From NCBI GenBank assembly GCA_031292305.1, contig JARLHJ010000027.1:1-21645 (forward strand): a stretch of 21,645 nt of DNA. The letters are read 5' to 3'. The position numbers and the translations under genes are program-made. The stretch comes from Candidatus Babeliales bacterium (GTDB taxonomy: Bacteria > Babelota > Babeliae > Babelales > JABDEC01). Shown here in pieces: positions 2,980 to 21,565 of this stretch. The first letter of the stretch is position 1. The number at the start of each line of letters is the position of its first letter. The notes under the pieces were generated by a model, which did no database searches, had not been told where the DNA came from, and was given only the letters and a program-made list of their open reading frames with translations.

Positions 2980-3008
2980 TTAGGGCTTACTTCTTAAGTA
3001 AGCCCTAA
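2980..3008 (-). terminator. Hairpin terminator after the 3017-3769 gene
   Basis: A perfect 13-bp inverted repeat (TTAGGGCTTACTT arm) with a 3-nt loop lies 8 nt past the stop codon. The minus-strand tail (AAGTTATT) is poor in T, so this may act partly as an RNA 3'-end stabiliser. Confidence 0.65.
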
Positions 3009-3016
3009 TTTAAATT

Positions 3017-3769
3017 TTATAATCCCATCTCAGTTAAGCTAATGCCTTCTCGAGATTCAACATCAGGCACAACATCTACAGATGAATTCAAGTCTACATT
3101 CGATTGAGCATCTCTTTGCGATACTGTAGTAGTTTCTCTCGCTTTATTTTGCAAACTAGTAAGTTCTTCTTGCGCTCGAAGGCTTTCTAATGCATCTTCT
3201 CTTTCTTTTATAGCTGCGTCCGTCTTTGCTTTAGCTTTAGCTAATTTATTATTAATTTTAGCTTTATCAGCAGCAGCTGTTTGTTGCGCAGCGGTTCGTT
3301 TAGCGCTTAGTTCAGCGGATTTTGCATTAGGTCCACCACTTTTTGAAATCTCTGTAGAAATTTGACTATCTAATATTTTTGCTTTTTCTTCATTTGCTCT
3401 TATGTTTTGGGCATAAGAGCTTTTGTTTATTTCATTTTGCTTATTCAAAGCTTTGATCACTTTTGAATTAGCATTTTCTAAATGCACAGCTGTTTCATTA
3501 GACAAATCTTTTTGTGCTTTAGCAACTTTTTTTTGAGCAGCATCAACTGCCAATGTAGCTTCCTCTGGATTTCCTGAGCCACGGTCAGCTAACTTACTCA
3601 ATTCCTTAGCTTTTTGCAGGTTGTTTTTCGCTATTTCTAACTTAGATTGAGCTGCTTTGACACTAACAGAAGTCCCTTTAGTAGTTAGTTTGGTTAAAAA
3701 ACCTATTGCATAAGCATTAAATGAACTAATTAATACAAAACTCAATAACACATAAATTAACTTATTCAT
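3017..3769 (-). CDS. Secreted helical protein with the shared acidic C-tail
   Basis: The product is 250 residues. MNKLIYVLLSFVLISSFNAY forms a signal peptide with likely cleavage after AYA. Two adjacent ATGs exist (3772 and 3769); 3769 gives better spacing to GGGGG. An earlier in-frame start at 3796 is rejected because it lies within the terminator hairpin of the preceding gene. The body is Lys/Ala/Glu-rich with heptad character, likely coiled coil throughout. The last about 50 residues (RAQEELTSLQNKAR to ISLTEMGL) are nearly the same as those of the 406-residue neighbour, including synonymous positions. The gene starts only 47 nt after that neighbour's stop, with a hairpin between, so expression probably depends on readthrough. 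Function unknown. Confidence 0.82.
   Translation of the reverse strand: MNKLIYVLLSFVLISSFNAYAIGFLTKLTTKGTSVSVKAAQSKLEIAKNNLQKAKELSKLADRGSGNPEEATLAVDAAQKKVAKAQKDLSNETAVHLENANSKVIKALNKQNEINKSSYAQNIRANEEKAKILDSQISTEISKSGGPNAKSAELSAKRTAAQQTAAADKAKINNKLAKAKAKTDAAIKEREDALESLRAQEELTSLQNKARETTTVSQRDAQSNVDLNSSVDVVPDVESREGISLTEMGL
3018..3180. repeat. Direct repeat copy 1 (C-tail coding)
   Basis: This segment matches 3821-3983 at a constant offset of 803 nt. The first 105 nt differ at 4 positions; the rest diverges to roughly three-quarters identity. It encodes the shared C-terminal tail. Confidence 0.9.
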
Positions 3770-3788
3770 CATAAGCCCCCAAATAAAT

Positions 3789-3809
3789 AGGCCCACTATT
3801 CGTGGGCCT
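3789..3809 (-). terminator. Hairpin between the 3820-5040 and 3017-3769 genes
   Basis: AGGCCCAC and GTGGGCCT arms (8 bp, GC-rich) with a 5-nt loop are followed on the minus strand by ATTTATTT. It starts 10 nt past the stop at 3820 and ends about 20 nt before the next start codon, leaving no room for a separate promoter between the two genes. It may be a partial terminator. Confidence 0.7.
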
Positions 3810-3819
3810 TCAATTTAAC

Positions 3820-5040
3820 CTATAATCCCATCTCTGTTAAGCTGATGTCTTCTCGAGATTCAACATCAGGCACATCATCTACAGATGAATTCAAGTCTAC
3901 ATTCGATTGAGCATCTCTTTGCGATGCAGCACTAGTTTCTTTAGCTGTATTTTGCAAGCTCGTAAGTTTTTCTTGAGCTCTAAGAGTTGCTAATTCTGCC
4001 TTCGCTTTAGCTTGCGCAACTGTTCTTGCAATATCAGCTTTATTTTGTTCACTTAATGGTGGCGGACCTTTTTTTATTACAGGTTTTGCAATTAGATCTT
4101 CTGAAATTTTTGCTTTTGCCGACCCAGATTTCACTCTTTCTAGCTCTGCATTTTTGGCTTGACGAGCAGCCATTTTCTTTTCTAATTCACTCATTGGTCT
4201 TTCTGTAGAAGTTTGTTTTGCAGGAGCTGATTGCGATCTAGATGCGGAATTTAATTTTGGCATTGTTCTAACTTCAGATATATTATCAGTAGTAGCTGAT
4301 TTAGGTGCAATAGCTTTAGAAGTTGCTTGACGTGCTGCTAATTTTGCTTTCATTTCTGCCATCATATCTGGTTTTGCAACAGCTTTATTTTCCACTGATG
4401 CAGACTTTAATTTTGCACTTCCTAATGCATCAGCCAGCGATTTTCCACCTACTCTTGAAGGTGCTTTAAAAGATGATGATGGAGCTGGTGGCGCACCTGG
4501 TGCCATTGGCGGAGCCGCTGGTGCCATTGATGGTGCCATTGGAGGAGCTTCAGGCGCTAATGATGGCGCTGAAGGCACAGCTGTATTTTCAGTTGAAACA
4601 ACTGGTGATGTTTCTTTAGCTGAAACCTTAGCTTTAACATCTAATGATGCTGCTTTATTTTTTTCTATATCTAACTTTGCTTGCTCAACATCTGCTTTAG
4701 CTTGAATTGCATCTTTTAATTCTTTATGAGCTGCAGCTTCTTTGGCTGTTCCTTTTGCTTGTGCTAATTTATCAGTTGCATTTTTAATGTTTCTATCTAA
4801 CCTTGCTGCCATTTTAGATTCTAAAGTTTCTACTGGCTTAGCAACTGCTTTTGGTGCTGATGTTTTTACTTTTGCAGCTAAAGCCTGCTTCCAAGCTGGA
4901 ACTCCTTTTGCAGATGAGTGCGGCGAAGAAGGCGCACCAGGTGCCATAGGCGGCGCCATTGGGGGTGCCATTGGTGGAGCATCAGGAACTGCTAATACTA
5001 AATTAACTATTGATAAACTAAACAAAAATAACTTTTTCAT
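3820..5040 (-). CDS. Secreted modular Pro/Met-rich protein with the shared C-tail
   Basis: The product is 406 residues, with a perfect AAGGAG site before the ATG at 5040. Residues 1-17 are a signal peptide. Two similar modules follow. Module one has an APPMAP repeat at 21-36, then VPAWKQALAAKVKTSA (47-62), KAVAKP and KMAAR. Module two has APPMAP repeats at 165-186, then SLADALGSAKLKSA (201-214), KAVAKP and KLAAR. A third KMAAR.AKN copy lies at 289-297. GPPPLS (325-330) starts a segment shared with the 1162-2850 protein, and the last about 50 residues match the 3017-3769 protein. Proline-rich stretches next to short amphipathic basic helices recall actin-regulating proteins, but the LADALGSAKLK segment fits the WH2 consensus only loosely, so this is a conjecture. 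The gene lies 57 nt after the 5098-6369 gene with no hairpin between, so they are probably cotranscribed. Confidence 0.85.
   Translation of the reverse strand: MKKLFLFSLSIVNLVLAVPDAPPMAPPMAPPMAPGAPSSPHSSAKGVPAWKQALAAKVKTSAPKAVAKPVETLESKMAARLDRNIKNATDKLAQAKGTAKEAAAHKELKDAIQAKADVEQAKLDIEKNKAASLDVKAKVSAKETSPVVSTENTAVPSAPSLAPEAPPMAPSMAPAAPPMAPGAPPAPSSSFKAPSRVGGKSLADALGSAKLKSASVENKAVAKPDMMAEMKAKLAARQATSKAIAPKSATTDNISEVRTMPKLNSASRSQSAPAKQTSTERPMSELEKKMAARQAKNAELERVKSGSAKAKISEDLIAKPVIKKGPPPLSEQNKADIARTVAQAKAKAELATLRAQEKLTSLQNTAKETSAASQRDAQSNVDLNSSVDDVPDVESREDISLTEMGL
3821..3983. repeat. Direct repeat copy 2 (C-tail coding)
   Basis: Partner of 3018-3180. It spans the end of the 3820-5040 gene including its stop codon (TAG here, TAA in the partner). 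Confidence 0.9.
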
Positions 5041-5097
5041 TTTATCTCCTTTTTAAAAATCATTAAAACATCCGTAATAAATTAAAACGCTTTCTAT

Positions 5098-6369
5098 CTA
5101 TTTCCATTTGAGCACAGTCGCTACCTTACATTGTGCTTTAGTAATAGGTAATTGAACAGGTACAGTAGGTTTATTTTTTAACTTTAAATTACAACTTTTA
5201 GACTTAGCATTATAAGTTGCAGTTATGTTCGATGCACTACATAAAGCTGCAGTATTTAAGCCCAATTGCTTAGTTATATTATTTCCAACTATATAACAAT
5301 TTTTAGGAGCTGCCGCCACTGGTTTTGCAACTGGAACTGCTACTGGTTTTGGTGCTGCTGCCACTGGTTTTGCAACTGGAACTGCTACTGGTTTTGCAAC
5401 TGGAGCCACCAGGGGTACTGTTACTGGCGTCGCTTGTTGAACTGGCGTCGCTTGCTGCACTGGCGTCACTTGTTGAACCACTGGTGACGTTTGCTGCACT
5501 GTTGTCGAAACTGCTGCTGGTGTTGGCTGAACTACCGATGCCGCTGATGAAACTGCTTCTGGAGCTTTAAGAAGCTTACGCCCTTCATTATGACCATACT
5601 GTTGATAGTGATTAAATATAGAAACTAACCATTGTGTATCTGATACGTTGCCTTGAGCTAACATACCTGCATTTTGCAAATCTTGTTTGGTAGGGCTATA
5701 TGTACTTAAATCTGTAAAATTACCAGTATCTGACCAACTTGGGCCATTAATTTTTATCATTCTACCTTCTTTATATCCATAAGTAGTAAAATGCTGAATT
5801 GGATCCACTCCCGCAGCTTTTAAATCCGCGTTTGACGGGAAATTTATATAGGCTTGAGTATCAAACCCAGACAAAGATACAGGAACTACTACTGGCGTTT
5901 CGGGAGCTGAATTAGTCGTAGCGCATGTATTTTGATAACTTGGCCATGGATAGCCATCACATTCTAATGTGTGCGTTGTTTTCCAATTATTTCCACTTTG
6001 ATTTTTAAATAAACTTACATTTCCACTGCCATCCCAATTGAATTGAACTTCTAAATTGTCTCCATCTACAGGGGTATAATATGGCGCTGCCGTTGGGAAA
6101 TCAGTGTTATTATCAGAGATCTGATGACCACCACCTGTATTGCTATAATTAAAACCTAAATTCCCAGTACATGCTATTGGTATAGTTTGGGTTTGATTGC
6201 CTGAAATTGTTAATGGAAAAGCAGTAGAACTTGTACAATTTATAAGTTTATTAATCTGAATTGTATCGCCAGTTCCATTGGTAAATTTAAGGGTACCTTG
6301 TGTAGCTTCTGCTTTGAAGCATAATAAAATTGCTATAAGTAACAACAATTTAACTATATTACTTTTCAT
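5098..6369 (-). CDS. Secreted Cys-containing protein with FD..Y/EGR repeats and Pro-rich linker
   Basis: The product is 423 residues; AAGGAG precedes the ATG. Residues 1-22 are a signal peptide. Residues 24-140 look beta-rich, with four Cys (45, 67, 137, 149) suited to disulfides outside the cytoplasm. Residues 169-203 match a short repeat known from secreted bacterial proteins (FD..AY, then D..AAGVDP..H, then YGYKEGR). A weaker second copy at 220-264 ends YGHNEGR. Residues 270-356 are a Pro/Val/Ala linker made of VQQATP and KPVAVPVAKPVAAAP repeats. The last about 65 residues hold four more Cys (358, 377, 393, 414) in a small domain. The layout is two globular ends joined by a stiff linker, as in surface or secreted binding proteins. 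It appears to be the first gene of an operon leading into 3820-5040. Ligand unknown. Confidence 0.85.
   Translation of the reverse strand: MKSNIVKLLLLIAILLCFKAEATQGTLKFTNGTGDTIQINKLINCTSSTAFPLTISGNQTQTIPIACTGNLGFNYSNTGGGHQISDNNTDFPTAAPYYTPVDGDNLEVQFNWDGSGNVSLFKNQSGNNWKTTHTLECDGYPWPSYQNTCATTNSAPETPVVVPVSLSGFDTQAYINFPSNADLKAAGVDPIQHFTTYGYKEGRMIKINGPSWSDTGNFTDLSTYSPTKQDLQNAGMLAQGNVSDTQWLVSIFNHYQQYGHNEGRKLLKAPEAVSSAASVVQPTPAAVSTTVQQTSPVVQQVTPVQQATPVQQATPVTVPLVAPVAKPVAVPVAKPVAAAPKPVAVPVAKPVAAAPKNCYIVGNNITKQLGLNTAALCSASNITATYNAKSKSCNLKLKNKPTVPVQLPITKAQCKVATVLKWK
5316..5396. repeat. Tandem repeat coding the Pro/Val/Ala linker
   Basis: An exact 36-nt match (5316-5351 and 5361-5396) recurs with a 45-nt period. 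The period equals 15 codons, giving two KPVAVPVAKPVAAAP units in the 5098-6369 protein. Confidence 0.9.
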
Positions 6370-6404
6370 ATCAACTCCTTTTAAATTAAGATTATATTAA
6401 GTAA

Positions 6405-6434
6405 ATATTATCATATACAAGAAGAGAAAATCAA
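6405..6434 (-). promoter_or_regulatory. Promoter of the 5098-6369 gene (family type)
   Basis: Minus strand: TTGATT (6429-6434), 18-bp spacer, TGA extension and TAATAT (6405-6410). The start codon is about 36 nt downstream. It probably drives 5098-6369, 3820-5040 and, by readthrough, 3017-3769. Confidence 0.7.
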
Positions 6435-6525
6435 TAGAATTGCAATTAGAAATATTTTCCCGAGGCCTTTTTAGGGTAAAACAGGGTAGTTATTAAGAAC
6501 AAGTCATATCCAGCCTAAAACTTAT

Positions 6526-7023
6526 TTAAAAGTTCAAGTCATATATTAGAAATCTTGTTTTTTGAGTATTAATATCTTCATCATGCATTGTTATTTTTTT
6601 TAATTTAGATTCCATAAAATAATTTTCGGAAGTGTGCAAATTAATTAACTTACTCTTAATAATTGCAATTTCTTTGTCTAGGGTAAGTGTAATTATAGAA
6701 TTATACTGCAGCATTGGATTACTTAGTTTCATCAATTCTAAGGTGGATTCTATAGGCCAGGGACCATTATAAAGCATAATAGATTGTACAGTCCCGTTGT
6801 TGGGGTTTTTATTCTTTGAAGCATTTCTGTAATTATTTAAACATTTGAAAACACCGAAATTATGCAAACCTTCTAGCATCCTAAAATTAAATTCATATTC
6901 ATATTGTTTTTGTACTAAATCGGAATTGAAGATAATTGATTGCCATAGATTTAATGAAAAAATTAGAATGATAGAGAAAATAACTGTGACTAGCAATATG
7001 CATGATCCATTATTATTTTTCAT
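6526..7023 (-). CDS. Minor pseudopilin-like protein (PilX/GspK-like position)
   Basis: This 165-residue protein is last in a three-gene operon; its ATG overlaps the stop of the previous gene by 4 nt (ATGA). The N-terminus is a short polar leader ending in Gly (MKNNNG) and then a hydrophobic helix (about 8-28), the shape of a type IV prepilin. Unlike the two upstream proteins it lacks the Glu expected at mature position 5 (SCILL), a trait of GspK-type tip pseudopilins. The remainder is a small extracytoplasmic domain that I cannot match further. The gene order (two Glu5 prepilins followed by a Glu-less one) resembles gspI-gspJ-gspK or pilV-pilW-pilX. The assignment rests on the N-terminus and context. 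No clear terminator follows. Confidence 0.6.
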   Translation of the reverse strand: MKNNNGSCILLVTVIFSIILIFSLNLWQSIIFNSDLVQKQYEYEFNFRMLEGLHNFGVFKCLNNYRNASKNKNPNNGTVQSIMLYNGPWPIESTLELMKLSNPMLQYNSIITLTLDKEIAIIKSKLINLHTSENYFMESKLKKITMHDEDINTQKTRFLIYDLNF

Positions 7024-7490
7024 AGCTCTCTATTTCTTATAAATACATGTTTATTAATCTTATATATTTTAGTCCCGTTTTGTATTTCAAGATTGATTTT
7101 AATAGATTGTCCCTGGTTTTTAAATTCACATGACAATGTATTATAGTGAACTAAGCTCTTAATTTGGTTTTCCCACTTATTATTTTCTTTATTAAATTCC
7201 CCTTCTATTCTATATAATTTATTTTTTATTAAATTCCAGCCAATATCTTTATTAAATATAGAAATAACTATTATGTTTTTATCAATTAATTTTATAGTGT
7301 TTGTTTTTTGCAAATCACGAGCGATTAAATCTATTACTGACCATGACTGACTATTTAAATTCGAACTAATAGATTTATATTTTTTATACATTTGATTAGA
7401 AAATTGAAATAACAAAATAAAAAACATAGAAGATAATGCTATGTAAATTATTACCTCTGTTAGATAAAATCCAGGATTTTTGCGTGTCAT
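7020..7490 (-). CDS. Prepilin-type minor pseudopilin (PilW/GspJ-like)
   Basis: The product is 156 residues. The N-terminus MTRKNPG then FYLTEVIIYIALSS is a class III (prepilin) signal: basic leader, Gly before the cleavage site, Phe at +1 and Glu at +5, followed by a hydrophobic helix to about residue 28. Such proteins are cut and N-methylated by prepilin peptidase and enter type IV pilus or type II secretion pseudopilus fibres. The mature part looks like a small beta-rich domain with one Cys. It overlaps both neighbours by 4 nt, which indicates translational coupling. The middle place in the cluster fits a GspJ or PilW role. No assembly ATPase, platform protein or peptidase is present in the window. 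Confidence 0.75.
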   Translation of the reverse strand: MTRKNPGFYLTEVIIYIALSSMFFILLFQFSNQMYKKYKSISSNLNSQSWSVIDLIARDLQKTNTIKLIDKNIIVISIFNKDIGWNLIKNKLYRIEGEFNKENNKWENQIKSLVHYNTLSCEFKNQGQSIKINLEIQNGTKIYKINKHVFIRNREL

Positions 7491-7858
7491 ATAATTATTC
7501 CGGTAACAAAAGACACTGATTTATTTTTTTCATAAATATCCCAGCTTACTATAATTTTAACAATTACAAATTTCTTCTTATATTGTCCTTTTTTAATAAA
7601 TATTGGTTCAATTTTAACTTTATATTTTTGTTCGACTATAAACTCTTGAGAGATGTTTTTACTGCTTTGCAAATCTTCTAAGTAACTAGACGCAATATTA
7701 ATTGCATTAATTTTCATTTCGTTTTCTAAATTTAACTTGATTATATGCCAATAGAAACTTAATGACAATAATGCAACCAAAGAAAATATACCAATAGCGA
7801 TAACTAGCTCAATTAATAGAAAACCTTTATACTTGGTGGGAAAGATGGTAGCATTCAT
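7487..7858 (-). CDS. Prepilin-type minor pseudopilin (PilV/GspI-like)
   Basis: The product is 123 residues. The leader MNATIFPTKYKG precedes FLLIELVIAIGIFSLVALL, with Gly at -1, Phe at +1 and Glu at +5: a clear type IV prepilin processing site and membrane helix. The short length and place at the head of the operon fit GspI or PilV. The start is fixed because no other ATG lies before the leader. A GAGG site lies rather far upstream (about 15 nt). The start codon is only 27 nt from the divergent start at 7886, so each promoter must sit partly inside the other gene. Confidence 0.75.
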   Translation of the reverse strand: MNATIFPTKYKGFLLIELVIAIGIFSLVALLSLSFYWHIIKLNLENEMKINAINIASSYLEDLQSSKNISQEFIVEQKYKVKIEPIFIKKGQYKKKFVIVKIIVSWDIYEKNKSVSFVTGIII

Positions 7859-7885
7859 AAAAATTCTTTAACCTCAAGGATCAAA

Positions 7886-9706
7886 ATGAAACAGTTAAAA
7901 TTTCTCTACAGCATAATACTATCGTGTTCTTTATTATCTTCTAATATTTTTTGTTACGATGAACCAAAAGTAGGTCCAATTTCTATGGATCAAGTTTCTC
8001 AAGATGAAATGGATTTAGCAAAACTAACAGAAGAATTAATGGGTTCAATGACTCCAGAACAAAGAGCTGAAGTGGATCAGGAATTAGCAAAATTTATGTC
8101 TTTAGATGAAAAAGACCAAGGTGAATACTTAGAAAATAAATTCAAAGAACTTTCTGTAGATTTAGAAAAAGCTGAAGCTATGCAAAAAGAAGAACAGCCA
8201 GAAATCCCAGAACCACAAGAAGAAGTTAAGATTGAAGAACCAAAAACTAAACCGGTTGTAAAAGCAGAACTTACAAAAGTTGAGCAAGTAAATACTGCGT
8301 TGAAAAAAATTATTCAACACACAGAACCTTTGATTTTAAAAACAAAAGTATTACCACAAGTATCTAAAGATACTAAAATAGCAACAGACTGGTTATCATT
8401 GTCTGATAATCTTATAGAATTAAATTCATTTGCAAAAATCATCTCACCAAAAGAAAATCTAATAGATTTATTAGCTACAGAAGAATTCTTATTAGTACGA
8501 GATCAACTTAAAACAATAGCAAACTATTTAGAAGAAAATGAACCAACTGTTATAGTTCCTGACACAGCAGGACTTACAATAAATTATGATGAAGAAGATG
8601 AAGATGAAGCGGCAAACGTTATTGTAACTGCCCAAAATAAACTAAAAATAATTATCCCTAAGTTAAAATCATTAATAGAAGATGATCAAGTAATATGGGG
8701 ATTAAAAAGATTACTTCAAAAATATGCTCCGGAAGAATTAAAAAAAGTTGAAACAGAAAAAAAAGCGGAAAAAAAGTTTATTGCTGATTTTAAACCAGGC
8801 AAAGAAACTCCATCAACATACACACCAAAGTATAATGAACCATTCTTTCCTAATTATGGTGGATCTGGCTACAATCCTACAGCCTCAACCACATCAGACA
8901 AACCTGCGTTAAGCGGCTCTTCTGAAAAAGGTAAAGGCGGTAAAGGCGGCGGTGGAGATAAAGGGGATAAAGACAAAGGCGGCAAAAACAAAGATGGCAA
9001 AGACAAAGACGGTAAAGATAAAGATGGTAAAGATGGCAAACCTAAAAAAGATGATAAAAATAAAGGACCTGATTTAAAAAGCTTTAATGAATTAAAAGCA
9101 ACATTGGAAAATATTTCTAAAATAGCGAAAGACAATAAGATTTTAGATCTTATTAAAGATGATAAAGATAAAGACGAGAAAGACTCAGAAGAAGTTTATG
9201 GACCAAATGGTGAAGTATTAGAAGATTCAGGTGCATTTGGACCAAAAACTGAAGAACAAACAGAAAAAGAAGAGGCTAAACTAAAACCAGTTGATATTAA
9301 TAGCCATGATTTAACAGCACCATTTACACAAATTAATATGCATTATGACAAAGCTGCAAAATTAGTTGCTAAATTGAATGGTTCAATTAAAGCATTGCCA
9401 GATGATATAAAAAAGCATTTACAAAAGGACATCAAAGCTTTATTTGATAATCCAGAACTAAAATTAAAGAAAATAGACCAAGCTTATAAATTAATAAATG
9501 ATACATTAATCAAGCGAACAAAAAAAGGCGGTGTAGATGCAAATGCTACATCACTAACGCCTGACCAATTACTACAAAAACAAGTTGGTTTTGCATTAAA
9601 AAAACATACTGATCTACAAGATTTAATTGCAAACAAACCAAAAGTTAATCCTCTAGCGCCTGTTAATAAGAATATTAAAGTTCCTAAAGGGCCTAAAATA
9701 ACTTAA
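7886..9706 (+). CDS. Large secreted charged protein with Gly/Lys/Asp-rich linker
   Basis: The product is 606 residues with AAGGA before the ATG. Residues 1-23 are a signal peptide. Residues 35-100 are acidic and helical (LAKLTEELMGSMTPEQRAEV region), 101-125 a Pro/Glu linker, and 130-290 helical with an Asp/Glu cluster at 235-241. Residues 348-393 are low-complexity Gly/Lys/Asp repeats (KDGKDKDGKD). Residues 395-430 and 470-580 are again helical. The C-terminus is basic and Pro-rich. No catalytic motif or known domain was recognised. It has a solo strong terminator and faces the pseudopilin operon; sharing a control region with it could mean co-regulation, but a link in function is not shown. 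A weak promoter guess (TTGGTG at 7833, CATAAA at 7856) lies within the divergent gene. Confidence 0.85.
   Translation: MKQLKFLYSIILSCSLLSSNIFCYDEPKVGPISMDQVSQDEMDLAKLTEELMGSMTPEQRAEVDQELAKFMSLDEKDQGEYLENKFKELSVDLEKAEAMQKEEQPEIPEPQEEVKIEEPKTKPVVKAELTKVEQVNTALKKIIQHTEPLILKTKVLPQVSKDTKIATDWLSLSDNLIELNSFAKIISPKENLIDLLATEEFLLVRDQLKTIANYLEENEPTVIVPDTAGLTINYDEEDEDEAANVIVTAQNKLKIIIPKLKSLIEDDQVIWGLKRLLQKYAPEELKKVETEKKAEKKFIADFKPGKETPSTYTPKYNEPFFPNYGGSGYNPTASTTSDKPALSGSSEKGKGGKGGGGDKGDKDKGGKNKDGKDKDGKDKDGKDGKPKKDDKNKGPDLKSFNELKATLENISKIAKDNKILDLIKDDKDKDEKDSEEVYGPNGEVLEDSGAFGPKTEEQTEKEEAKLKPVDINSHDLTAPFTQINMHYDKAAKLVAKLNGSIKALPDDIKKHLQKDIKALFDNPELKLKKIDQAYKLINDTLIKRTKKGGVDANATSLTPDQLLQKQVGFALKKHTDLQDLIANKPKVNPLAPVNKNIKVPKGPKIT
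8927..9064 (+). repeat. Low-complexity repeat coding Gly/Lys/Asp linker
   Basis: Imperfect short units of the kind AAAGATGGT/AAAGACAAA repeat in frame and encode residues 348-393 of the 606-residue protein. The tract has the purine-rich bias expected of slippage-grown sequence. Confidence 0.8.
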
Positions 9707-9713
9707 TCTAGCT

Positions 9714-9758
9714 AATACAAAAAGCTACCAAGAAGGTTTCTTGGTAGCTTTTTGTATT
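9714..9758 (+). terminator. Very long hairpin terminator after the 7886-9706 gene
   Basis: A perfect 21-bp stem (9714-9734 with 9738-9758) with loop GGT begins 8 nt past the stop. The stem contains GCTACCAAGAA. The T-rich tail (TTTTTGTATTTT) serves the plus strand. Confidence 0.9.
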
Positions 9759-9760
9759 TT

Positions 9761-9883
9761 CCCTGTAGGCGAACCCGAAGCCAATAAATAACACTTAAAA
9801 TTTAATTGGCTGAGGGTGAGACAACCCGTCCAGGCCCGAAGCCACCGGCGGGTACAGCTAAATTTTAATTAAAATTATTTTTT
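9761..9883 (+). ncRNA. GC-rich structured intergenic element, possible small RNA
   Basis: The stretch 9707-10032 has no gene. This part is far richer in GC than its surroundings. It contains CCCGAAGCC twice (9774-9782 and 9835-9843), a GGGT/ACCC hairpin (9814-9827), an ACCCG/CGGGT pairing (9824-9828 with 9849-9853), and outer arms around GGCTG (9808-9812) and CAGCT (9855-9859). It ends in the 16-nt AT palindrome 9861-9876 followed by a T-run (9878-9883), like a weak terminator. No ORF fits. The strand, and whether it is transcribed at all, are not known. It could instead be a dispersed repeat. Confidence 0.35.
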
Positions 9884-9910
9884 CCAAAAAAATTTCTCGA
9901 ACATCATTCG

Positions 9911-9955
9911 CACACAATCAAGATATTGCATTACATAACTAACGAATTATACGAC
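9911..9955. repeat. Direct repeat flanking the 10033-10569 gene, copy 1
   Basis: 38 of 45 positions match 10609-10653, with an exact 21-nt core beginning CAAGATATTGCATTACATAA. It lies 78 nt upstream of the start codon. Confidence 0.8.
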
Positions 9956-9969
9956 AAATTAATAGAGTA

Positions 9970-9998
9970 TTGTATATACCCAAAAAAGCTTCTATGTT
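9970..9998 (+). promoter_or_regulatory. Candidate promoter of the 10033-10569 gene
   Basis: TTGTAT (9970-9975), 17-bp spacer and TATGTT (9993-9998) would start transcription about 28 nt before the ATG. It differs from the TTGATTTT family type. Confidence 0.4.
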
Positions 9999-10032
9999 AT
10001 TAATATTAAATCTCTAATATAAGGATCAACAG

Positions 10033-10569
10033 ATGAAGTATTTTATTATCGCCTTACACTTATTTATAATATGCTCCTATACATCAGAAACTTCAGCTCA
10101 TCATCCTACATATTCAGATTCCATAAGAAGAAGTCTTGTATTTAAAGCAACAACAAGAAGCAAAATATTCAATACTTATAATACACCTGAATGTTTAAAA
10201 ACTTTTGAAAAAAGAGGTAAAAAACAATTATTAAAGAACTTTAATAATTGTTTATCGACTGATATATTCACTGACAAATTCAAAGCTAGTTTAATAGTGT
10301 ATAACGGTTGTCCTCTGGTAAGCACTAGTCGAAAATTAAATGAAGAGCAAATTGAATTAATAAAGCCCTATTTAAAAGCTATTATAAGACATATTTATTT
10401 ATCTAAAGCATGGCATAATTATTTTACCAGCAGAAGAATGTTAAAAGAAATAATTATGTTAGTTAATAAGCTTGGTTTAGAAAAACAAATAATAAAAGAT
10501 TTGGTAAATGAAATTTTATATGAACTTAATCCAAATATTCAAGTCGATCAAAGAGCCGAGGAGAACTAG
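10033..10569 (+). CDS. Small secreted protein of unknown function
   Basis: The product is 178 residues. AAGGATCAACAG precedes the ATG. Residues 1-22 form a signal peptide with likely cleavage at ETSA/HH. The mature part is basic and mostly helical, with three Cys outside the signal (PEC, NNC and NGC) that could pair in an oxidising compartment. No family was recognised. The gene stands alone, is convergent with 10771-11328, and is bracketed by a 45-nt direct repeat, which may point to insertion or duplication as a unit. No terminator of standard form follows. Confidence 0.75.
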   Translation: MKYFIIALHLFIICSYTSETSAHHPTYSDSIRRSLVFKATTRSKIFNTYNTPECLKTFEKRGKKQLLKNFNNCLSTDIFTDKFKASLIVYNGCPLVSTSRKLNEEQIELIKPYLKAIIRHIYLSKAWHNYFTSRRMLKEIIMLVNKLGLEKQIIKDLVNEILYELNPNIQVDQRAEEN

Positions 10570-10608
10570 AAAACCATGAAGGCATAACTGGCAAATTAAA
10601 CAAATTCT

Positions 10609-10653
10609 CACACGGACAAGATATTGCATTACATAACCAACCAATTATGTGAC
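10609..10653. repeat. Direct repeat flanking the 10033-10569 gene, copy 2
   Basis: Partner of 9911-9955. This copy contains an ACATAA...TTATGT inverted repeat (10631-10650). A much weaker third likeness (ATTGCGTTATGCGAC) lies at 10738-10752. The convergent gap 10570-10770 otherwise holds only an imperfect AGCG(T5)/(A5)CGCT hairpin at 10702-10720. Confidence 0.8.
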
Positions 10654-10770
10654 GAGCGTATTAATATTCTGAGTACTTTGCATTCACTTAGATACCTGTA
10701 AAGCGTTTTTAAAAATCGCTCTAACCTGGTCATAATGATTGCGTTATGCGACAAGACTTTATTTATCTTC

Positions 10771-11328
10771 TTAGATAATTCCAAGTCTGCTAAATATTTT
10801 AATACAAAAATCATCTATCTTATTATATAAAGAATCAGCTTGTCCGGTTAAAAATTGATTAACAATTAAATAACCCATAAATCTTAGATATGGTATATTC
10901 GATATATTTAAGCAAGGTGAATAAGGAACAGCTAGTTTGCAAGATGTAGTATATTTTGGATTACCTAACTTATTAATACATAATTTCCATAAAATAAAAT
11001 ATTTTACTGCTAAAGAAATCATTTTTTTAAATTCACGCATAATATCTTCACCGTTAGAATTTTCATTTTCAGATAAACTCTTAAAAGCATTAAGAGCAAC
11101 TAAGCCGTCTTTCGTTGCTTTGCTTTGTAATAAAAAAATAAATCCGTTAAAAATACCTGTTGCCAATTCTTTTATAACCTCTGGACTATCTGCTTTTAAA
11201 GCAGATACTATGACCCTTGAATGTGATTGGGCAATAGAAAGTGCCATAGAATTTTCTAAAGAATAAGATTTATAACTAAAACCTAAAGACATCATAATAA
11301 AAGCAATCAAACCTATCTTTTTTAACAT
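10771..11328 (-). CDS. Small secreted protein of unknown function
   Basis: The product is 185 residues. AGGGGG lies before the ATG at 11328. Residues 1-23 are a signal peptide (cleavage likely after YKSYS). The rest is mainly helical, with four Cys (KLC, TSC, SPC, DFC) compatible with two disulfides. Hydrophobic stretches at about 58-68 and 105-118 are too short to be sure membrane spans. No family match was recognised. The promoter upstream (TTGACA) is the best -35 in the window, suggesting high expression. The gene runs towards 10033-10569 and may form a functional pair with it, but that is only positional. Confidence 0.75.
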   Translation of the reverse strand: MLKKIGLIAFIMMSLGFSYKSYSLENSMALSIAQSHSRVIVSALKADSPEVIKELATGIFNGFIFLLQSKATKDGLVALNAFKSLSENENSNGEDIMREFKKMISLAVKYFILWKLCINKLGNPKYTTSCKLAVPYSPCLNISNIPYLRFMGYLIVNQFLTGQADSLYNKIDDFCIKIFSRLGII

Positions 11329-11368
11329 TATAACCCCCTATTATAAATATAATTTACTATTAATTATA

Positions 11369-11396
11369 ATAATAACAAAGTGGTCAAATATGTCAA
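11369..11396 (-). promoter_or_regulatory. Promoter of the 10771-11328 gene
   Basis: Minus strand: consensus TTGACA (11391-11396), 16-bp spacer and TATTAT (11369-11374). The start would fall about 35 nt before the ATG. Confidence 0.6.
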
Positions 11397-11410
11397 ATGG
11401 AAATATTTAA

Positions 11411-11421
11411 ACCCGAAGGGT
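11411..11421 (-). terminator. Weak hairpin after ftsW
   Basis: ACCC/GGGT arms around a 3-nt loop are followed on the minus strand by TTTAAATATTT. It lies 16 nt past the ftsW stop. The 4-bp stem makes this a poor terminator. Confidence 0.3.
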
Positions 11422-11437
11422 ATGCCTATAATTTCTA

Positions 11438-12547
11438 TTAATAACTATTATTTTTTACATAATTTATGATAAGGCCAACCATTAACAAACTACAAATTAA
11501 TGCAGAATTACCATAACTAACAAATGGCAGCCCAATACCTTTAGTAGGAAAAAGCCCAGCAGCAACGCAGAAATTAATAAGTGCTTGCGCGCTAATCAAA
11601 ACAACAAAACCTAAAGTAGAAAACACACAAAATGTGTCATTAAATTTAAATGCAATACGTATACCAAAATATAAAAAGCCTACAAATAACATAATTAAAC
11701 ATGCAGACCCTACAAAGCCGGTTTCTTCTGCAATAATAGAAAATATAAAATCTGTATGTTGCATAGGCAGATAAAAAAATTTCTGCTTTGAATTAGAAAT
11801 TCCTATTCCCCAAAATCCACCTGAACCAATTGCAATTAACGATTGTATAATTTGAAACCCTGCACCTTGCGAATCTTGCCAAGGATCTAAAAAAGTTAAT
11901 ATACGTTTTAATCTATAAGATTTAAAAAGCACAAGGCTAATCAATACAGGCAAACTTAATAAGATAGTAGAAACTAAATATATTGCTTTAAATTGAGCTA
12001 TAAAAAGAAGAATAAAAGTGGTGAATGCTAAAGCAACTGATAAACCAAAATCAGGCTGTTTTAATAAAATACCACATGTGATAACTAAAATAAAAACCAA
12101 TGGCAAATAACTATGCGCAAAAGAAGCTCTTTGATATATTTTCTTTTCTAATAAATAGGCTACATATAAAATTAAAGATACTTTTAAAAGCTCACTCGGT
12201 TGAAAACTAAAACCTGCCAAAGAAAGCCAACGGGAAGAACCGTGAATTTTTTGACCTAAACCGGGAATTAAAGTTAATGCGGTTAAAAAGAGAGATCCAT
12301 AAAAAAACAATGGAGAAAGTTTTTTAATAAAATTTAATGGTAATTTTATCGTGATCAAAACAAAAACAATACCTAAGAGCGCACCAAAAATCTGCTTTTT
12401 TACAAAATAAGAAGCAAATCCAAATTTCTCTAAAGCAAATACTGAACTGGCTGAGTATATAAAAACAAAGCCAGTAATTAGTAAAGCTAGAACTATCGCT
12501 AAGAATATTCTGAGATTGAATATAAGTTCACTTCGATTAGAATACAT
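11438..12547 (-). CDS. ftsW: FtsW, SEDS peptidoglycan glycosyltransferase of division
   Basis: FtsW polymerises lipid II into septal glycan strands together with its partner class B PBP. The 369-residue product has 9-10 hydrophobic spans and SEDS signatures: YSASS (31-35), GSSRWL with GFSFQPSELLK (103-122), LKQPDFG (162-168), DPWQDSQGAGFQ (221-232), PMQHTDF (261-267) and NFCVAAGLFPTKGIGLPFVSYG (325-346 region). D266 in HTD aligns with the catalytic Asp of the family. RodA is the close alternative; FtsW is preferred because the gene directly follows murD, as in division/cell-wall clusters. AAGGAG precedes the ATG. It is the third gene of pepA-murD-ftsW. Confidence 0.92.
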   Translation of the reverse strand: MYSNRSELIFNLRIFLAIVLALLITGFVFIYSASSVFALEKFGFASYFVKKQIFGALLGIVFVLITIKLPLNFIKKLSPLFFYGSLFLTALTLIPGLGQKIHGSSRWLSLAGFSFQPSELLKVSLILYVAYLLEKKIYQRASFAHSYLPLVFILVITCGILLKQPDFGLSVALAFTTFILLFIAQFKAIYLVSTILLSLPVLISLVLFKSYRLKRILTFLDPWQDSQGAGFQIIQSLIAIGSGGFWGIGISNSKQKFFYLPMQHTDFIFSIIAEETGFVGSACLIMLFVGFLYFGIRIAFKFNDTFCVFSTLGFVVLISAQALINFCVAAGLFPTKGIGLPFVSYGNSALICSLLMVGLIINYVKNNSY

Positions 12548-12567
12548 ATTCTCCTTGCAATACGTTA

Positions 12568-12596
12568 TTTAAAATTTAATCTTATTAAATTTTAAA
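12568..12596 (-). other. AT-only inverted repeat between murD and ftsW
   Basis: Perfect 13-bp arms (TTTAAAATTTAAT) with loop CTT overlap the murD stop codon and precede the ftsW ribosome binding site. With no G or C in the stem it is unlikely to terminate well; it could modulate readthrough or RNA processing. Confidence 0.5.
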
Positions 12597-13953
12597 CTCG
12601 TTTTGCAATTTCTTTATTTACCAATTGCTTAAAAGCTTTTCCACGCTCAGTGTAAATAGTAAATAAATCATAACTTGAACCAGCTGGAGAAAATATAACC
12701 TTGTCTTTATCACAAGCAATTTTCATACAAATATCTACAGCCTCTTCAAGCGTTTTACTTTTGTAAGCTGGTATTGTATTTAAATCACAAAAATCTTTAA
12801 GTTGTTCAGCTTCAGCACCAAAACAAATTATAGTTTTAACTTTATCTTTTAATTCTTTAATCATTATAGAGCGATCAAAGCCTTTGCTTAACCCACCTAA
12901 AAATAAAATAATATTATTAGTTTTAAATTTTGACACAGCAGCAAGCGTAGCTTCTGGCACGGTGGATTTTGAATCATTATAAAACTCAACATCACCCTTT
13001 TGTGCAAACTTTTCTAATCTATGCTCGGGGATATCTAACTTAGTAACATCTATATTTAACTGAGTTTTATTCAAATAAAATGCGGCACAGATCATTAACC
13101 AATTTTCTACAAACGTAATTTCTGGCAGATTTTTTAGCGGATAGATAAATTCATGCGCGCTTGCATGATACTTATAAATATTCTCATCACTTATATAAAA
13201 TAAACTATCACCCTGCTTTAACAAAGCAAAATCACTTTCAAAAACTGGGTTAATTGAAAAGAAATTAAGTTTACATGAAGGGTTTTTTTTATAAATTTCT
13301 TTAATCAAATTAAACGGCACAAGAGCACAATCAAACTCATCTTGTTTTGACATAATCATGAATTTAGCGTCAAAATAAGATGACATATCCCCATGTCTAT
13401 CTAAATGATTAGGATATAGATTGGTCCAAATAGCAATTGCAGGCTTTAAAACATTAGAACATTCTAATTGGAAGCTAGAAATCTCTAAAACAACATTATC
13501 AATTTCGTCCTGGCGAAAAAGCAAATCACACATCCCCAGTCCAATATTGCCTGCAGCAACAGCACGAATGCCTTGCATACATAATAATGTAGTTAATAAA
13601 TGCGTTGTAGAAGTTTTGCCTAAAGTTCCTGTAATGGCAATAATAGGCTTGTTAAAATGCAAAGCAAAAAGATCTAGCTCAGATAAAAACTTATCTTTAT
13701 ATTTTGCTACGCTCGATAAATCAATACCAGGACTTGGAACTATAATATCATTGTGATTAAGAAAAGATTCTAAGTCTGCAGCCTGTGCAAAGAAAGATAT
13801 ATCTCTTTCTTTGCACCATGCTACTTCTAACTCAGTCAAATTTCGTTTTTCTAAAACTTCTAAATCATAGTTCCTAGAATACAAATAATTGGCAACTGAT
13901 TTACCAACAATACCAAATCCCCAGATGCCTATTTTTTTAGAACTAAGATCCAT
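12592..13953 (-). CDS. murD: MurD, UDP-MurNAc-L-alanine:D-glutamate ligase
   Basis: MurD adds D-Glu to UDP-MurNAc-L-Ala in the cytoplasm, using ATP. At 453 residues it is of normal length. Domain 1 has the Rossmann-like GIWGFGIVGKS (9-19) and PSPGID (73-78). The central ATPase domain has ITGTLGKTSTT (107-117), GNIG (135-138), EISSFQLE (157-164), NHLDRHG (182-188) and the candidate carbamylated Lys in DAKF (K197). The C-terminal domain has EHRLE (310-314), NDSKS (326-330), GGLSKG (353-358), SPAGSSYD (422-429) and RGKAF (437-441). The P-loop has Leu where GTNGK/GSNGK is usual. The start codon directly abuts the pepA stop (TAAATG), so translation is probably coupled; the own Shine-Dalgarno (GGGA) is weak. 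Confidence 0.95.
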   Translation of the reverse strand: MDLSSKKIGIWGFGIVGKSVANYLYSRNYDLEVLEKRNLTELEVAWCKERDISFFAQAADLESFLNHNDIIVPSPGIDLSSVAKYKDKFLSELDLFALHFNKPIIAITGTLGKTSTTHLLTTLLCMQGIRAVAAGNIGLGMCDLLFRQDEIDNVVLEISSFQLECSNVLKPAIAIWTNLYPNHLDRHGDMSSYFDAKFMIMSKQDEFDCALVPFNLIKEIYKKNPSCKLNFFSINPVFESDFALLKQGDSLFYISDENIYKYHASAHEFIYPLKNLPEITFVENWLMICAAFYLNKTQLNIDVTKLDIPEHRLEKFAQKGDVEFYNDSKSTVPEATLAAVSKFKTNNIILFLGGLSKGFDRSIMIKELKDKVKTIICFGAEAEQLKDFCDLNTIPAYKSKTLEEAVDICMKIACDKDKVIFSPAGSSYDLFTIYTERGKAFKQLVNKEIAKRV

Positions 13954-15453
13954 TTATTTTTCCCAGTTCATCGCAAGTTCAGTAAGCAATCTTATACCAA
14001 CACCAGTAGCAGTTGCACGTCTGTAATAAGACACATCAGGTACATTAAATGCAGTACCAGCTATATCTAAATGCACCCAAGGTGTTTCGCCTACAAAATG
14101 TTGTAAGAAACATGCAGCGGTTGTACCACCAGCCATATAATCTTTGCGACCAATATTGCAAAGATCTGCAACATCAGCTTTAACTGCAACTTTATAATCA
14201 TCAGTTAATGGCAATCTCCATACAGCTTCACCAGACACTTTAGAAGCATCTAAAACACGTTGAGTTAATTCATCATGTTGGCTAAATAAACCACTAAAGA
14301 ATGGCCCAAGTGCATAAGCACAAGCACCAGTTAAAGTTGCTAAATCTATAATTGCATCTGGCTTGTAATGCTTTACTGCATAAGAAAGCGCATCTGCTAA
14401 AATCAATCTACCTTCAGCATCTGTATTTTTAACTTCTGCAGTTTTACCATTATAAAATTTAACAATGTCTCCAGGTTTTAACGCTGTACCACTAGGTAAG
14501 TTTTCAGCAATTGGCGCAATTCCTACAATATTAATCTTAGGTTTTAATTGTCCAATTACTTTCATGGTTGCAATAACAGCAGCAGCACCAGACATATCTT
14601 CTTTCATAGTTTCCATACTTGCGGCTGGCTTGATACTTAATCCTCCAGAATCGAAAGTAATTCCCTTACCTACAAAAGCAACTGTCGGAGCATTTTTTTC
14701 TTTGGTTTTATATTCGATTATTACTAATTTACAATCTAACTCTGAGCCTTTTGAAACTCCTGCTAAACCACCCATGCCCATTTTAATAATTTCTTTTTCT
14801 GTAAATACTGTACATTTAAGACCTTCATGCTTAGAAATAGATTCTGCATGTGCGGCTAAATCTGCTGGTGTTAACATATTTGCAGGTAGATCAATCCATG
14901 ATCTTGCATCGTTAACTGCTTCTGCAATTAATAAGCCTTTATCAAGAGCAGATTTTAATTTTTTAACTAAAGCTGTAGATACAACAATATTAATATCTGT
15001 TTTTAATATAGTTTTTTTATCGGTGTGAAAAACATTAAACACATAATCTGCCATTTTTGCAATAACAGCAGTATGCTCAACAATGTATTCTGGCGTTGCA
15101 TCTAATTTTGGTAAATCAAAACCAACTGAACTTATATTATGTGTTGGTAATAATTTTACTAATGACCCTATTGCTCTTCTGTAGTTTTCGAATGCAACTT
15201 CGTTATTAATCTTGGTTTTGCCTAATCCCATCAAAATTAGATAAGAAAAATTATCATTAAATGTAGGTACTATTAATACACTACCTAAAGCACCTTTAAA
15301 CTTTTTATCTTTTGCTAATTTTTCTATATTTGGAGATATCTTTTTTAAACTTTTATAATCTAATAAATCTGAATCATCATTTACAAAATATACAACCGCA
15401 TCATATTTTGATTTTAGAAGATCTTTATCAGTTAATTTAATATTTACTGCCAT
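13954..15453 (-). CDS. pepA: Leucyl (cytosol) aminopeptidase, M17 family
   Basis: This two-metal cytosolic exopeptidase releases N-terminal amino acids from peptides. The ATG at 15453 is chosen over an upstream TTG at 15480 because AAAGGA stands just before it; the product is 499 residues, the usual length. The catalytic half has VGKGITFDSGGLSIK (261-275), EDMSGAA (285-291) and the signature NTDAEGRL (343-350). Metal and catalytic residues K263, D268, K275, D286, D345, E347 and R349 are all present and evenly spaced relative to E. coli PepA. The N-terminal half is the more variable macro-like domain. First gene of the pepA-murD-ftsW operon; in a host-dependent bacterium it may serve to use imported peptides. 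Confidence 0.95.
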   Translation of the reverse strand: MAVNIKLTDKDLLKSKYDAVVYFVNDDSDLLDYKSLKKISPNIEKLAKDKKFKGALGSVLIVPTFNDNFSYLILMGLGKTKINNEVAFENYRRAIGSLVKLLPTHNISSVGFDLPKLDATPEYIVEHTAVIAKMADYVFNVFHTDKKTILKTDINIVVSTALVKKLKSALDKGLLIAEAVNDARSWIDLPANMLTPADLAAHAESISKHEGLKCTVFTEKEIIKMGMGGLAGVSKGSELDCKLVIIEYKTKEKNAPTVAFVGKGITFDSGGLSIKPAASMETMKEDMSGAAAVIATMKVIGQLKPKINIVGIAPIAENLPSGTALKPGDIVKFYNGKTAEVKNTDAEGRLILADALSYAVKHYKPDAIIDLATLTGACAYALGPFFSGLFSQHDELTQRVLDASKVSGEAVWRLPLTDDYKVAVKADVADLCNIGRKDYMAGGTTAACFLQHFVGETPWVHLDIAGTAFNVPDVSYYRRATATGVGIRLLTELAMNWEK

Positions 15454-15467
15454 AAAATCCTTTATTG

Positions 15468-15484
15468 TTAATTGTAACAATTAA
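15468..15484. promoter_or_regulatory. Palindrome at the pepA start region, possible operator
   Basis: TTAATTGT and ACAATTAA arms (8 bp, perfect) around one base lie over the expected transcription start of pepA. It shares TTGTAA with the palindrome at 15520-15536. Confidence 0.4.
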
Positions 15485-15512
15485 AGATTAGCAGTTGTTA
15501 TTGCAAAAACAA
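15485..15512 (-). promoter_or_regulatory. Candidate promoter of pepA-murD-ftsW
   Basis: Minus strand: TTGTTT (15507-15512), 16-bp spacer, TGC extension and TAATCT (15485-15490). The start site would fall near 15478, about 25 nt before the ATG. Confidence 0.45.
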
Positions 15513-15519
15513 GGGTTTT

Positions 15520-15536
15520 ATTACAATGCTTGTAAT
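15520..15536. promoter_or_regulatory. Palindrome upstream of the pepA -35, possible operator
   Basis: ATTACAA and TTGTAAT arms (7 bp, perfect) around TGC. Its centre lies 52 nt from that of 15468-15484, about five helical turns, an arrangement that could allow paired binding. Confidence 0.4.
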
Positions 15537-15568
15537 TGAAAATAACTTCTAGAAATATAACCAACTTT

Positions 15569-15893
15569 TTAAATATTTATTGCATATTGCTTTCTTAAAA
15601 TATTTTGTTCTTCAGTGGTAAAACTTTTAAATACAGACTTTATATAGGCAAAATCTATTTTTAACCTTTGTGATAAATTGTAAAACTTTATCTTTTTTAT
15701 CGACAGATAGTTTATTTGCCTTGATTAAATCTTCTAATATTCTTGAATATTTATCGAGTAAATAAATCAAAGCACTCTGTTTTGGCGAAAACTGATCAAT
15801 AGTCCATTTGATTTTGGGAGTGAATATTATTCCACCATTAGGTATTTTCAATGAGATTGAATCACCTTTCCATTCTCCTTCATCAAGATTGTA
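15569..15893 (-). pseudogene. Frameshifted gene remnant
   Basis: A minus-strand frame with no ATG is open from 15893 (after a TAG) and reads protein-like sequence (EWKGDSISLKIPNGG ... YSRILEDLIKANKLSVDKK) to a stop at 15627. A second frame then continues just as plausibly (KIDFAYIKSVFKSFTTEEQN ... QYAINI) to a stop at 15569. A single base change in length near 15665-15680, in an A/T-run, would join them. The 5' part with a start codon and signal peptide is missing. The likeliest reading is a decayed 3' end of a gene of unknown family. The alternative is a chance open frame starting at a TTG (15851). Confidence 0.45.
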
Positions 15894-15963
15894 CTAATAT
15901 TAAATTCAAATAAGCAATAGTTTAACAGGGTAATCAGAGAGATCTTATAGCTATATTGGATTA

Positions 15964-16278
15964 TTAAATATCAAATCCAAATGAGATAGATTTAAAAGGC
16001 TTACGCCAATAAGGGTCACTAAACCTGGAATGGGATTTTACATAATTGGGTCTATAATAGCGCCTGTTATTGTAGATTTGTTGCTTATACACAACATCCG
16101 GCTTATCTTGATAAATAACCTCTTGTTTTGATTTTCTAATTTTGGGCCCATTAATTGATACAAGGCTAGATGCATTTGCGTCTGAATCCTTTGATAATAA
16201 TGCTGCGCATTCACTTGGAATGAACCAGAATGTGATAAATAATAATAAAATTAATCTATTATTGTACAACAACTTCAT
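15964..16278 (-). CDS. Small basic secreted protein
   Basis: The product is 104 residues from the ATG at 16278; a TTG three codons earlier is an alternative. Residues 1-24 form a signal peptide (LILLLFITFWFIPSECAA). The mature part is rich in Arg, Lys and Tyr (NNRRYYRPNYVK), strongly basic and probably unstructured. The start overlaps the end of the upstream hydrolase gene by 20 nt and has AAGG too close to serve well, so it probably depends on translational coupling. No family was recognised. The pairing with the hydrolase suggests a joint role outside the cytoplasm, but nothing in the sequence states it. Confidence 0.65.
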   Translation of the reverse strand: MKLLYNNRLILLLFITFWFIPSECAALLSKDSDANASSLVSINGPKIRKSKQEVIYQDKPDVVYKQQIYNNRRYYRPNYVKSHSRFSDPYWRKPFKSISFGFDI

Positions 16279-17263
16279 CCTTATCAATTAAAACAATTTC
16301 CGGATCTTGTGAATATATTTTTTTAGTTATGACATCCATAAAAAAATTATTTAGTCTTTTTAAATATTCTTCAGGATCGTAAAATACTGAATCACAATGT
16401 TCACGACCATTAGTAATCCAAAGACGTTTATATCCATTGGCATTTTCATAAATTTGCTCAACAGATTCTGGCGAACTTTTACTATCATTTTTACAAACAA
16501 CAAAATAAGTAGGTATTGTAATATTTTTGATAGATTCAACAGGGTTAATAGGCTTTACCAGTGTTTCTATATTTACATCATTAACATTGGCAATTTTTTT
16601 TAATAAATATCTAATAATAGATTGCACATACGGGTTAAATGCATATTTTTCTAATAATCCACAACCAGGTAAATCAAATTCGTATCCCCAAATTCCTACC
16701 TTTAATTTTGATAATATTTTATGCAGCACATCTACGCTTGATGTAAATGGAGCATCTAAAAACATCGCTTGGCATAAATTAGGATCTAGAGATTGTGCTT
16801 CAATAGCAGAAGCTGCACCCATAGAAAATCCAAATATAAATATAGGCTTATCCTTTAAATCTGGTCTTGATTTTAAATAATCTATTGCAGCAAATATATC
16901 ATATATTTCATCATAGCCTAATGTACTACATTGATCTTCTATATGTTCACCATGCGCTCTAAAATCAAAAGTAAAACAGTTATAATCACTTAAAAAAATA
17001 CGAAATGGGCCAACATCAAATTTATCTCTTGAATACCCATGTAATATCAAAATAGTCGCTTTTGCATTATCTCTTTTTACTAAAATCCCTTTTCTGCCAA
17101 TTCTTTCATTTGAGCCTTCTTCCTTTATTGCATAAAAGGTAACATGCTCTTTAACAGAATTTTTAGAAGCAACTACTTTTTTTTCTGGAATATCTTTATA
17201 AAATAAAGCTGCAACAGGAAATGTTATAGAAAAAAACACACTTAATATAAATAAATTTATCAT
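16259..17263 (-). CDS. Exported alpha/beta hydrolase (serine esterase/lipase-like)
   Basis: The product is 334 residues from the ATG at 17263, chosen for AAGGA about 6 nt upstream; a TTG ten codons earlier is less likely. Residues 1-19 (MINLFILSVFFSITFPVAA) are a signal peptide or anchor. The fold is plain: LHGYSRDK (74-81, oxyanion region), FDFRAHGEH (99-107), nucleophile elbow GFSMG (145-149, S147), acid in CKNDSKSS (D260) and base in GREHCDS (H289). A lid-like insertion covers about 185-240. Exact substrate (lipid, ester or peptide) cannot be told. First gene of a pair with the overlapping 104-residue basic protein, transcribed away from the coiled-coil gene at 17513. Confidence 0.88.
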   Translation of the reverse strand: MINLFILSVFFSITFPVAALFYKDIPEKKVVASKNSVKEHVTFYAIKEEGSNERIGRKGILVKRDNAKATILILHGYSRDKFDVGPFRIFLSDYNCFTFDFRAHGEHIEDQCSTLGYDEIYDIFAAIDYLKSRPDLKDKPIFIFGFSMGAASAIEAQSLDPNLCQAMFLDAPFTSSVDVLHKILSKLKVGIWGYEFDLPGCGLLEKYAFNPYVQSIIRYLLKKIANVNDVNIETLVKPINPVESIKNITIPTYFVVCKNDSKSSPESVEQIYENANGYKRLWITNGREHCDSVFYDPEEYLKRLNNFFMDVITKKIYSQDPEIVLIDKDEVVVQ

Positions 17264-19703: not shown

Positions 19704-19737
19704 ATAAAATCTCCACAATAATAATTAATTTTTTCAC

Positions 19738-21479: not shown

Positions 21480-21565
21480 AATTACCCATTTTTAGCCCAT
21501 TAAACCCCTTTTTTATATAATTTTAGCAATTTCACTCTGTAATTTACTCAAGGAACAAAAAAGCC

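Follow-up and report, generated by a model that had tools for sequence, protein, structure and literature searches.

A C-terminal module shared by exported proteins of a Dependentiae bacterium, and the probable recent conversion of its 3′ tip between two neighbouring genes

The Dependentiae, intracellular parasites of protists about which little is known, carry many orphan exported proteins. In tandem families of secreted or surface-protein paralogues gene conversion is a general phenomenon, and several C-terminal sorting tags are established, such as LPXTG, PEP-CTERM, GlyGly-CTERM and the type IX CTD. In type II secretion such recognition as is known is structural rather than linear, and one Vibrio substrate requires the PDZ domain of EpsC (PMC12369372). 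The passages of the published account of Chromulinavorax destructans drawn on here report that 44% of its predicted proteins are orphan proteins with signal sequences, and describe genes for type IV pili and a derived pulD channel (PMC6561590). Here we analyse a 21,645-nt stretch of DNA (the window) from an uncultured bacterium, one of whose window proteins has Candidatus Dependentiae or Babeliales as its nearest phylum-named relatives, and in which two neighbouring genes for otherwise unlike exported proteins share their 3′ ends.

Both genes lie on the minus strand. Gene 1 (T1, 3017..3772) encodes an Ala/Lys-rich helical protein ending ...EGISLTEMGL, assigned as exported from the ORF list, translation, alignment and a hydrophobic N-terminus. 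The product of gene 2 (T2, 3820..5040), also exported, is 406 aa long, carries APPMAP repeats and ends in ...EDISLTEMGL (ORF list and alignment). We set the start of T1 at the inner ATG at 3772, most likely in preference to the GTG at 3796 of the listed ORF, because it has a GGGGG motif upstream (the better ribosome site) and gives the signal peptide MMNKLIYVLLSFVLISSFNAYA. The original prediction described near-identical tails at an 803-nt offset, and the alignment bears this out: 3018-3191 and 3821-3994 are 89.1% identical over 174 nt, ungapped (blastn E 2.8e-60; 19 of 174 sites differ), so that the match also extends further than described, to 3191. Within the 105 nt of 3018-3122 exactly four sites differ from the T2 partner (3032, 3041, 3045 and 3072), two synonymously and two non-synonymously.

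Similarity ends on either side of this stretch. The stop codons are unlike (TAA in T1, TAG in T2), identity in the 3′ flanks is 17/60 after the stop, which is background at the same offset, and the terminator-like hairpin after gene 2 (3789..3809, minus strand) is unrelated in sequence to the hairpin after gene 1 (2980..3008). Upstream, about 4-14 of every 30 positions are identical at the 803-nt offset, again background. The bodies are unlike in length and motif content and, once the last 62 residues are removed, have no significant blastp match to each other (best E 0.10); their DNA matches are low-complexity pieces of 9-53 nt only (best E 0.006). The remainder of the two genes is thus unrelated, as had been stated, and the pair do not look like simple full-length duplicates.

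The shared stretch itself falls into two parts. Over about the last 34 codons (3018..3122 in gene 1, 3821..3925 in gene 2, minus strand) pS is 0.087 and pN 0.025, against a pS of 0.44 and a pN of 0.15 in the preceding 23 codons (3123..3191 and 3926..3994, minus strand), with no homology further upstream. Differences number 4/102 in the former and 15/69 in the latter (Fisher p 0.0004); for synonymous sites alone the p value is 0.02, on few sites (23 and 16). The adjacent helix, by comparison, has a pS of 0.53 between T1 and T2, 0.52 between T1 and C25, a paralogue on another contig, and 0.35 between T2 and C25. Since the helices of T1 and T2 are as far apart as they are from that of C25 while their tips are near-identical, we suggest that the tip was converted recently, on top of a module of older origin. 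Such a high-identity tract, synonymous sites included, inside diverged homologues is the pattern of gene conversion, and recent conversion of the last ~105 nt over older homology, the 3′ end alone as originally proposed, is well supported by these comparisons. The tract would end at the stop codon, since the hairpins beyond share no sequence. Rfam gave no RNA family in the window, and a two-sequence fold of the shared stretch showed no covariation; neither offers an RNA-based explanation for the synonymous conservation.

The genome was also searched in six frames by protein, by profile and by pattern, and we read the stretches around the matches. A single-sequence search gave weak matches on contigs C19 and C25, where diverged tails end three more ORFs, exported or partial: C25 (...ALEDMGL), C19a (...ESLMGL, cut by the contig end) and C19b (...SESIAGL). 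The DNA of T2 and C25 matches at 84% over 50 nt. A profile match added P588 (1162..2850, minus strand), a third exported, coiled-coil-like protein of the window, whose diverged module (AELARVQAEQQLADAQNE...PAAGSQAADNI...) has the helix but ends in FNRG, not MGL. A profile of all six tails, which contains its own members, found with confidence only these six in the genome. In leave-one-out HMM searches 5 of the 6 were recovered at E 2.5e-3 or better (T2 3.6e-7, C19b 2e-7, P588 1.6e-4, T1 2.3e-3, C25 2.5e-3) and C19a was missed; with this exception, the helix and acidic Φ-G-L tail are recognised by an independent profile, as would be a domain family of their own. The acidic low-complexity composition of the tail makes weak similarity by chance easier, and a seventh tail on C16, ending EPILGM, is marginal (E 0.161 with the six-tail profile, 0.003 in a leave-one-out round). 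The C16 protein is flanked by Sel1-like exported paralogues (locus L047, 8210-8877 and 10667-11334, plus strand) that are 83% identical over 668 nt. The tail proteins had no match above cut-off in Pfam or NCBIfam, and a comparison with solved structures gave none.

Other proteins of the same genome therefore carry the tail in diverged form, where the original prediction had left room for there being none; related genomes lack it. Among 101 genomes of the phylum, this one included and none of the others of the same genus, we found no convincing member outside its own genome, so that the domain family was seen in one genome alone. A marginal match in one relative (G016, E 0.01) lies within a 2342-aa open frame, and matches in two others (G013 and G026) look like chance on inspection. 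GTDB contigs, IMG/VR and phages yielded no relative of the tail or of the region. Just downstream of the C25 tail gene is a copy of the 3′ end of a LolC/E-like gene (locus L045, 690-752; 87% over 63 nt to 21419-21481 of the window); since no intact gene is present there, this remnant suggests an old rearrangement.

The module comprises a long helix (AELxxLxAQExLxxLQN) and a disordered acidic tip of 25-35 residues that usually ends in Φ-G-L. The bodies of the members are Ala/Lys-rich and net positive, and their last 36 residues have a net charge of -4 to -8. In a model of the T2 end (130 residues), built from three window sequences, residues 55-103 form a helix that is predicted with confidence along most of its extent (pLDDT about 80-91), and the last 27 are disordered; with a pTM of 0.27, the local structure of the model alone is meaningful. 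The hydrophobic moment of the helix is not above that of shuffles, so a classical coiled-coil interface is unsupported by this test. In the members for which a start is known the N-terminus is hydrophobic and resembles a signal peptide, by eye and by hydropathy, C19b falling just below the threshold used; the proteins, originally called secreted, can safely be called no more than exported by Sec. Among T1, T2, C25 and C19b the helix has a pN of 0.10-0.27 and a pS of 0.35-0.78, and because pN is well below pS this indicates purifying selection on the helix.

Taken together, homology of the ends, the conversion pattern and restriction to one genome lead us to an account that we consider probable, namely a fast-evolving exported family with an old C-terminal docking module, of which the tip has recently been homogenised by conversion in two neighbours. 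T1 and T2 would be members of a lineage-specific family, in a Dependentiae bacterium, of helical, Ala/Lys-rich proteins exported by Sec; the bodies of these proteins change fast, but their C-terminal module, helix and acidic tip, is old and common to the members. The module may dock these proteins on a shared partner or on each other, in the periplasm or outside, and conversion between the adjacent genes would homogenise the last ~105 nt of T1 and T2. Docking or assembly by a conserved helix with an acidic disordered end is the most economical and most likely reading of the role of the module, which we infer from these features. A module found on otherwise unrelated exported proteins would then offer a handle by which to group orphans and to seek their partner.

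Most members sit in a cluster of about 17 exported ORFs. In a relative of the same family (G001) the gene order is pseudopilins, two genes, rplI, dnaB. Here C14 carries the pseudopilins and C19 carries rplI-dnaB, and exported ORFs reach both contig ends; given this and the G001 order, C14 in reverse very probably adjoins C19, and the intervening ORFs, spread over at least 23 kb, form a lineage-specific island between the pseudopilin genes and rplI-dnaB. The island is absent from G001, the sole family relative with a readable junction; the rplI-dnaB contig of G002 was too short and was left out of this comparison. Its conserved flank in the window consists of three pseudopilin-like genes (6526..7858, minus strand) in the same order as in G001 (NCBIfam ComGE-like, 3.7e-8, below cut-off). 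Within the window the island also has exported proteins without the tail, the Ala-rich P285 (67..924, minus strand; ORF list, no profile match) and P423 at the upstream edge of the island (5098..6369, minus strand; ORF list). Elsewhere in the window a 45-nt direct repeat (9906-9950 and 10604-10648, 87%) surrounds a 178-aa exported ORF (10033-10569), and a thioredoxin reductase-like protein (18264-19718, minus strand), which begins with a hydrophobic segment and has a thioredoxin-like part at its C-terminus, has similar proteins in other Dependentiae. G001 has a tandem set of its own, six small exported proteins near ileS (locus L066, C9 of G001, 8722-11602, plus strand), which is another lineage-specific expansion in a different place.

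Three other genes of the island share a second 3′ module, SLAGEVSxADAQAAQ...EEEE, which is unrelated to the first tail and ends in a Glu-rich run (locus L044 on C19, 2806-3126, 4415-4714 and 16748-17071, plus strand). These proteins are exported and their bodies otherwise differ. The second module was absent from relatives, being found in its own genome alone among 39 searched. Exchange or retention of C-terminal ends therefore goes beyond T1 and T2, suggesting that young exported-protein islands of the phylum exchange and homogenise their 3′ ends. An island so rich in repeats and shared 3′ ends, with neither tail in any relative, would also suit a functionless tail, that is, a low-complexity 3′ end spread by recombination among tandem exported genes and yet to decay. 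We regard this as unlikely, since the amino acids of the helix are kept, as its pN and pS values indicate, and the final Φ-G-L recurs in diverged members.

Alternatively, the tail could be a C-terminal export or sorting signal, its free Φ-G-[LM] end being recognised by a PDZ domain in the periplasm (for example that of a GspC-like protein) or by a C-terminal processing protease, with exit via a secretin. The signal-peptide-like N-termini, as judged by hydropathy, would suit type II substrates, and the ends EMGL, EMGL, DMGL, LMGL and IAGL, with a weak ILGM, roughly fit x-Φ-x-Φ-COOH, which we take to be a class II PDZ ligand. A GspC-like protein that combines T2SSC and PDZ domains is also encoded in the genome, beside four secretins. 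These belong to a type II-like locus (L076, G000 C21:10000-29900, 4874-17101, plus strand) comprising the GspC-PDZ protein, a PilM-like protein and four clustered secretin ORFs; C34, apart from this cluster, carries a fifth secretin. The need of a Vibrio substrate for the EpsC PDZ domain speaks for such a signal, but type II substrates have no universal linear signal, and what PDZ-dependent information is known resides in a folded Ig domain (PMC12369372). Moreover, the tail is carried by about six proteins while exported ORFs number about 17 in the island alone, and P588 lacks the Φ-G-L end. MGL-stop is not clearly enriched in the genome (43 pattern matches against 31 for a reversed control), and among the 30 of the 43 matches that were read the tail was seen on the known tail ORFs alone. 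We find this explanation doubtful, slightly more so than a functionless tail, and judge a genome-wide sorting tag unlikely. In the strongest form of the explanation, the GspC PDZ domain of a Dependentiae type II-like system with several secretins would recognise the tail as a new linear C-terminal tag, and conversion would keep that tag uniform; this seems very unlikely, and nothing in the sequences appears to mark the tail as a general export signal. An export function, if proven, would be relevant to the still open matter of how substrates are selected in type II secretion, although this is not the likeliest reading. Of the originally proposed recognised signal, what stands is that a diverged tail recurs on other exported proteins and that its helix is under purifying selection; its presence on about six proteins of one genome weighs against the rest.

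Plain tandem duplication of a whole gene, with bodies diverged beyond recognition and the tail kept by selection, would account for two adjacent, co-oriented genes for exported, Ala/Lys-rich proteins, but we hold it to be highly improbable because selection on the protein does not account for a tip pS of 0.087 beside 0.44 a few codons away, and the bodies are unlike in length and motif content. A repeat collapsed or mis-joined in this metagenome-assembled genome is barely credible, for although the cluster does break assembly, the tail genes of C19 and C25 being at contig ends, the two copies differ at 19 sites, neither ORF is interrupted, a separate hairpin follows each of them and the flanking genes are syntenic with G001.

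The docking module that we favour resembles C-terminal sorting tags in placing a common C-terminal end on otherwise unrelated exported proteins. It differs from them in lacking both the arrangement of motif, membrane helix and basic cluster and a type IX domain, and in marking about six proteins rather than a genome-wide set. A tag of the sortase, PEP-CTERM or GlyGly-CTERM type was rejected, since the last 60 residues of the tail proteins contain no hydrophobic segment, the tip is acidic and NCBIfam and Pfam give no match above cut-off, as was a type IX secretion C-terminal domain, since no tail protein matches Por_Secre_tail (the only match in the genome is on C35, below cut-off). With Chromulinavorax destructans the genome shares a large proportion of signal-sequence orphans, genes for type IV pili and a derived pulD channel; the cited passages of that account describe ankyrin proteins and orphans, and no shared C-terminal tail (PMC6561590). 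Compared with tandem surface-protein families, the converted tract here is only about 105 nt, involves the C-terminal tip alone and belongs to a family confined to one genome among those examined, but the locus is like them in its adjacent exported paralogues, fast bodies, one conserved end and homogenisation over a short tract.
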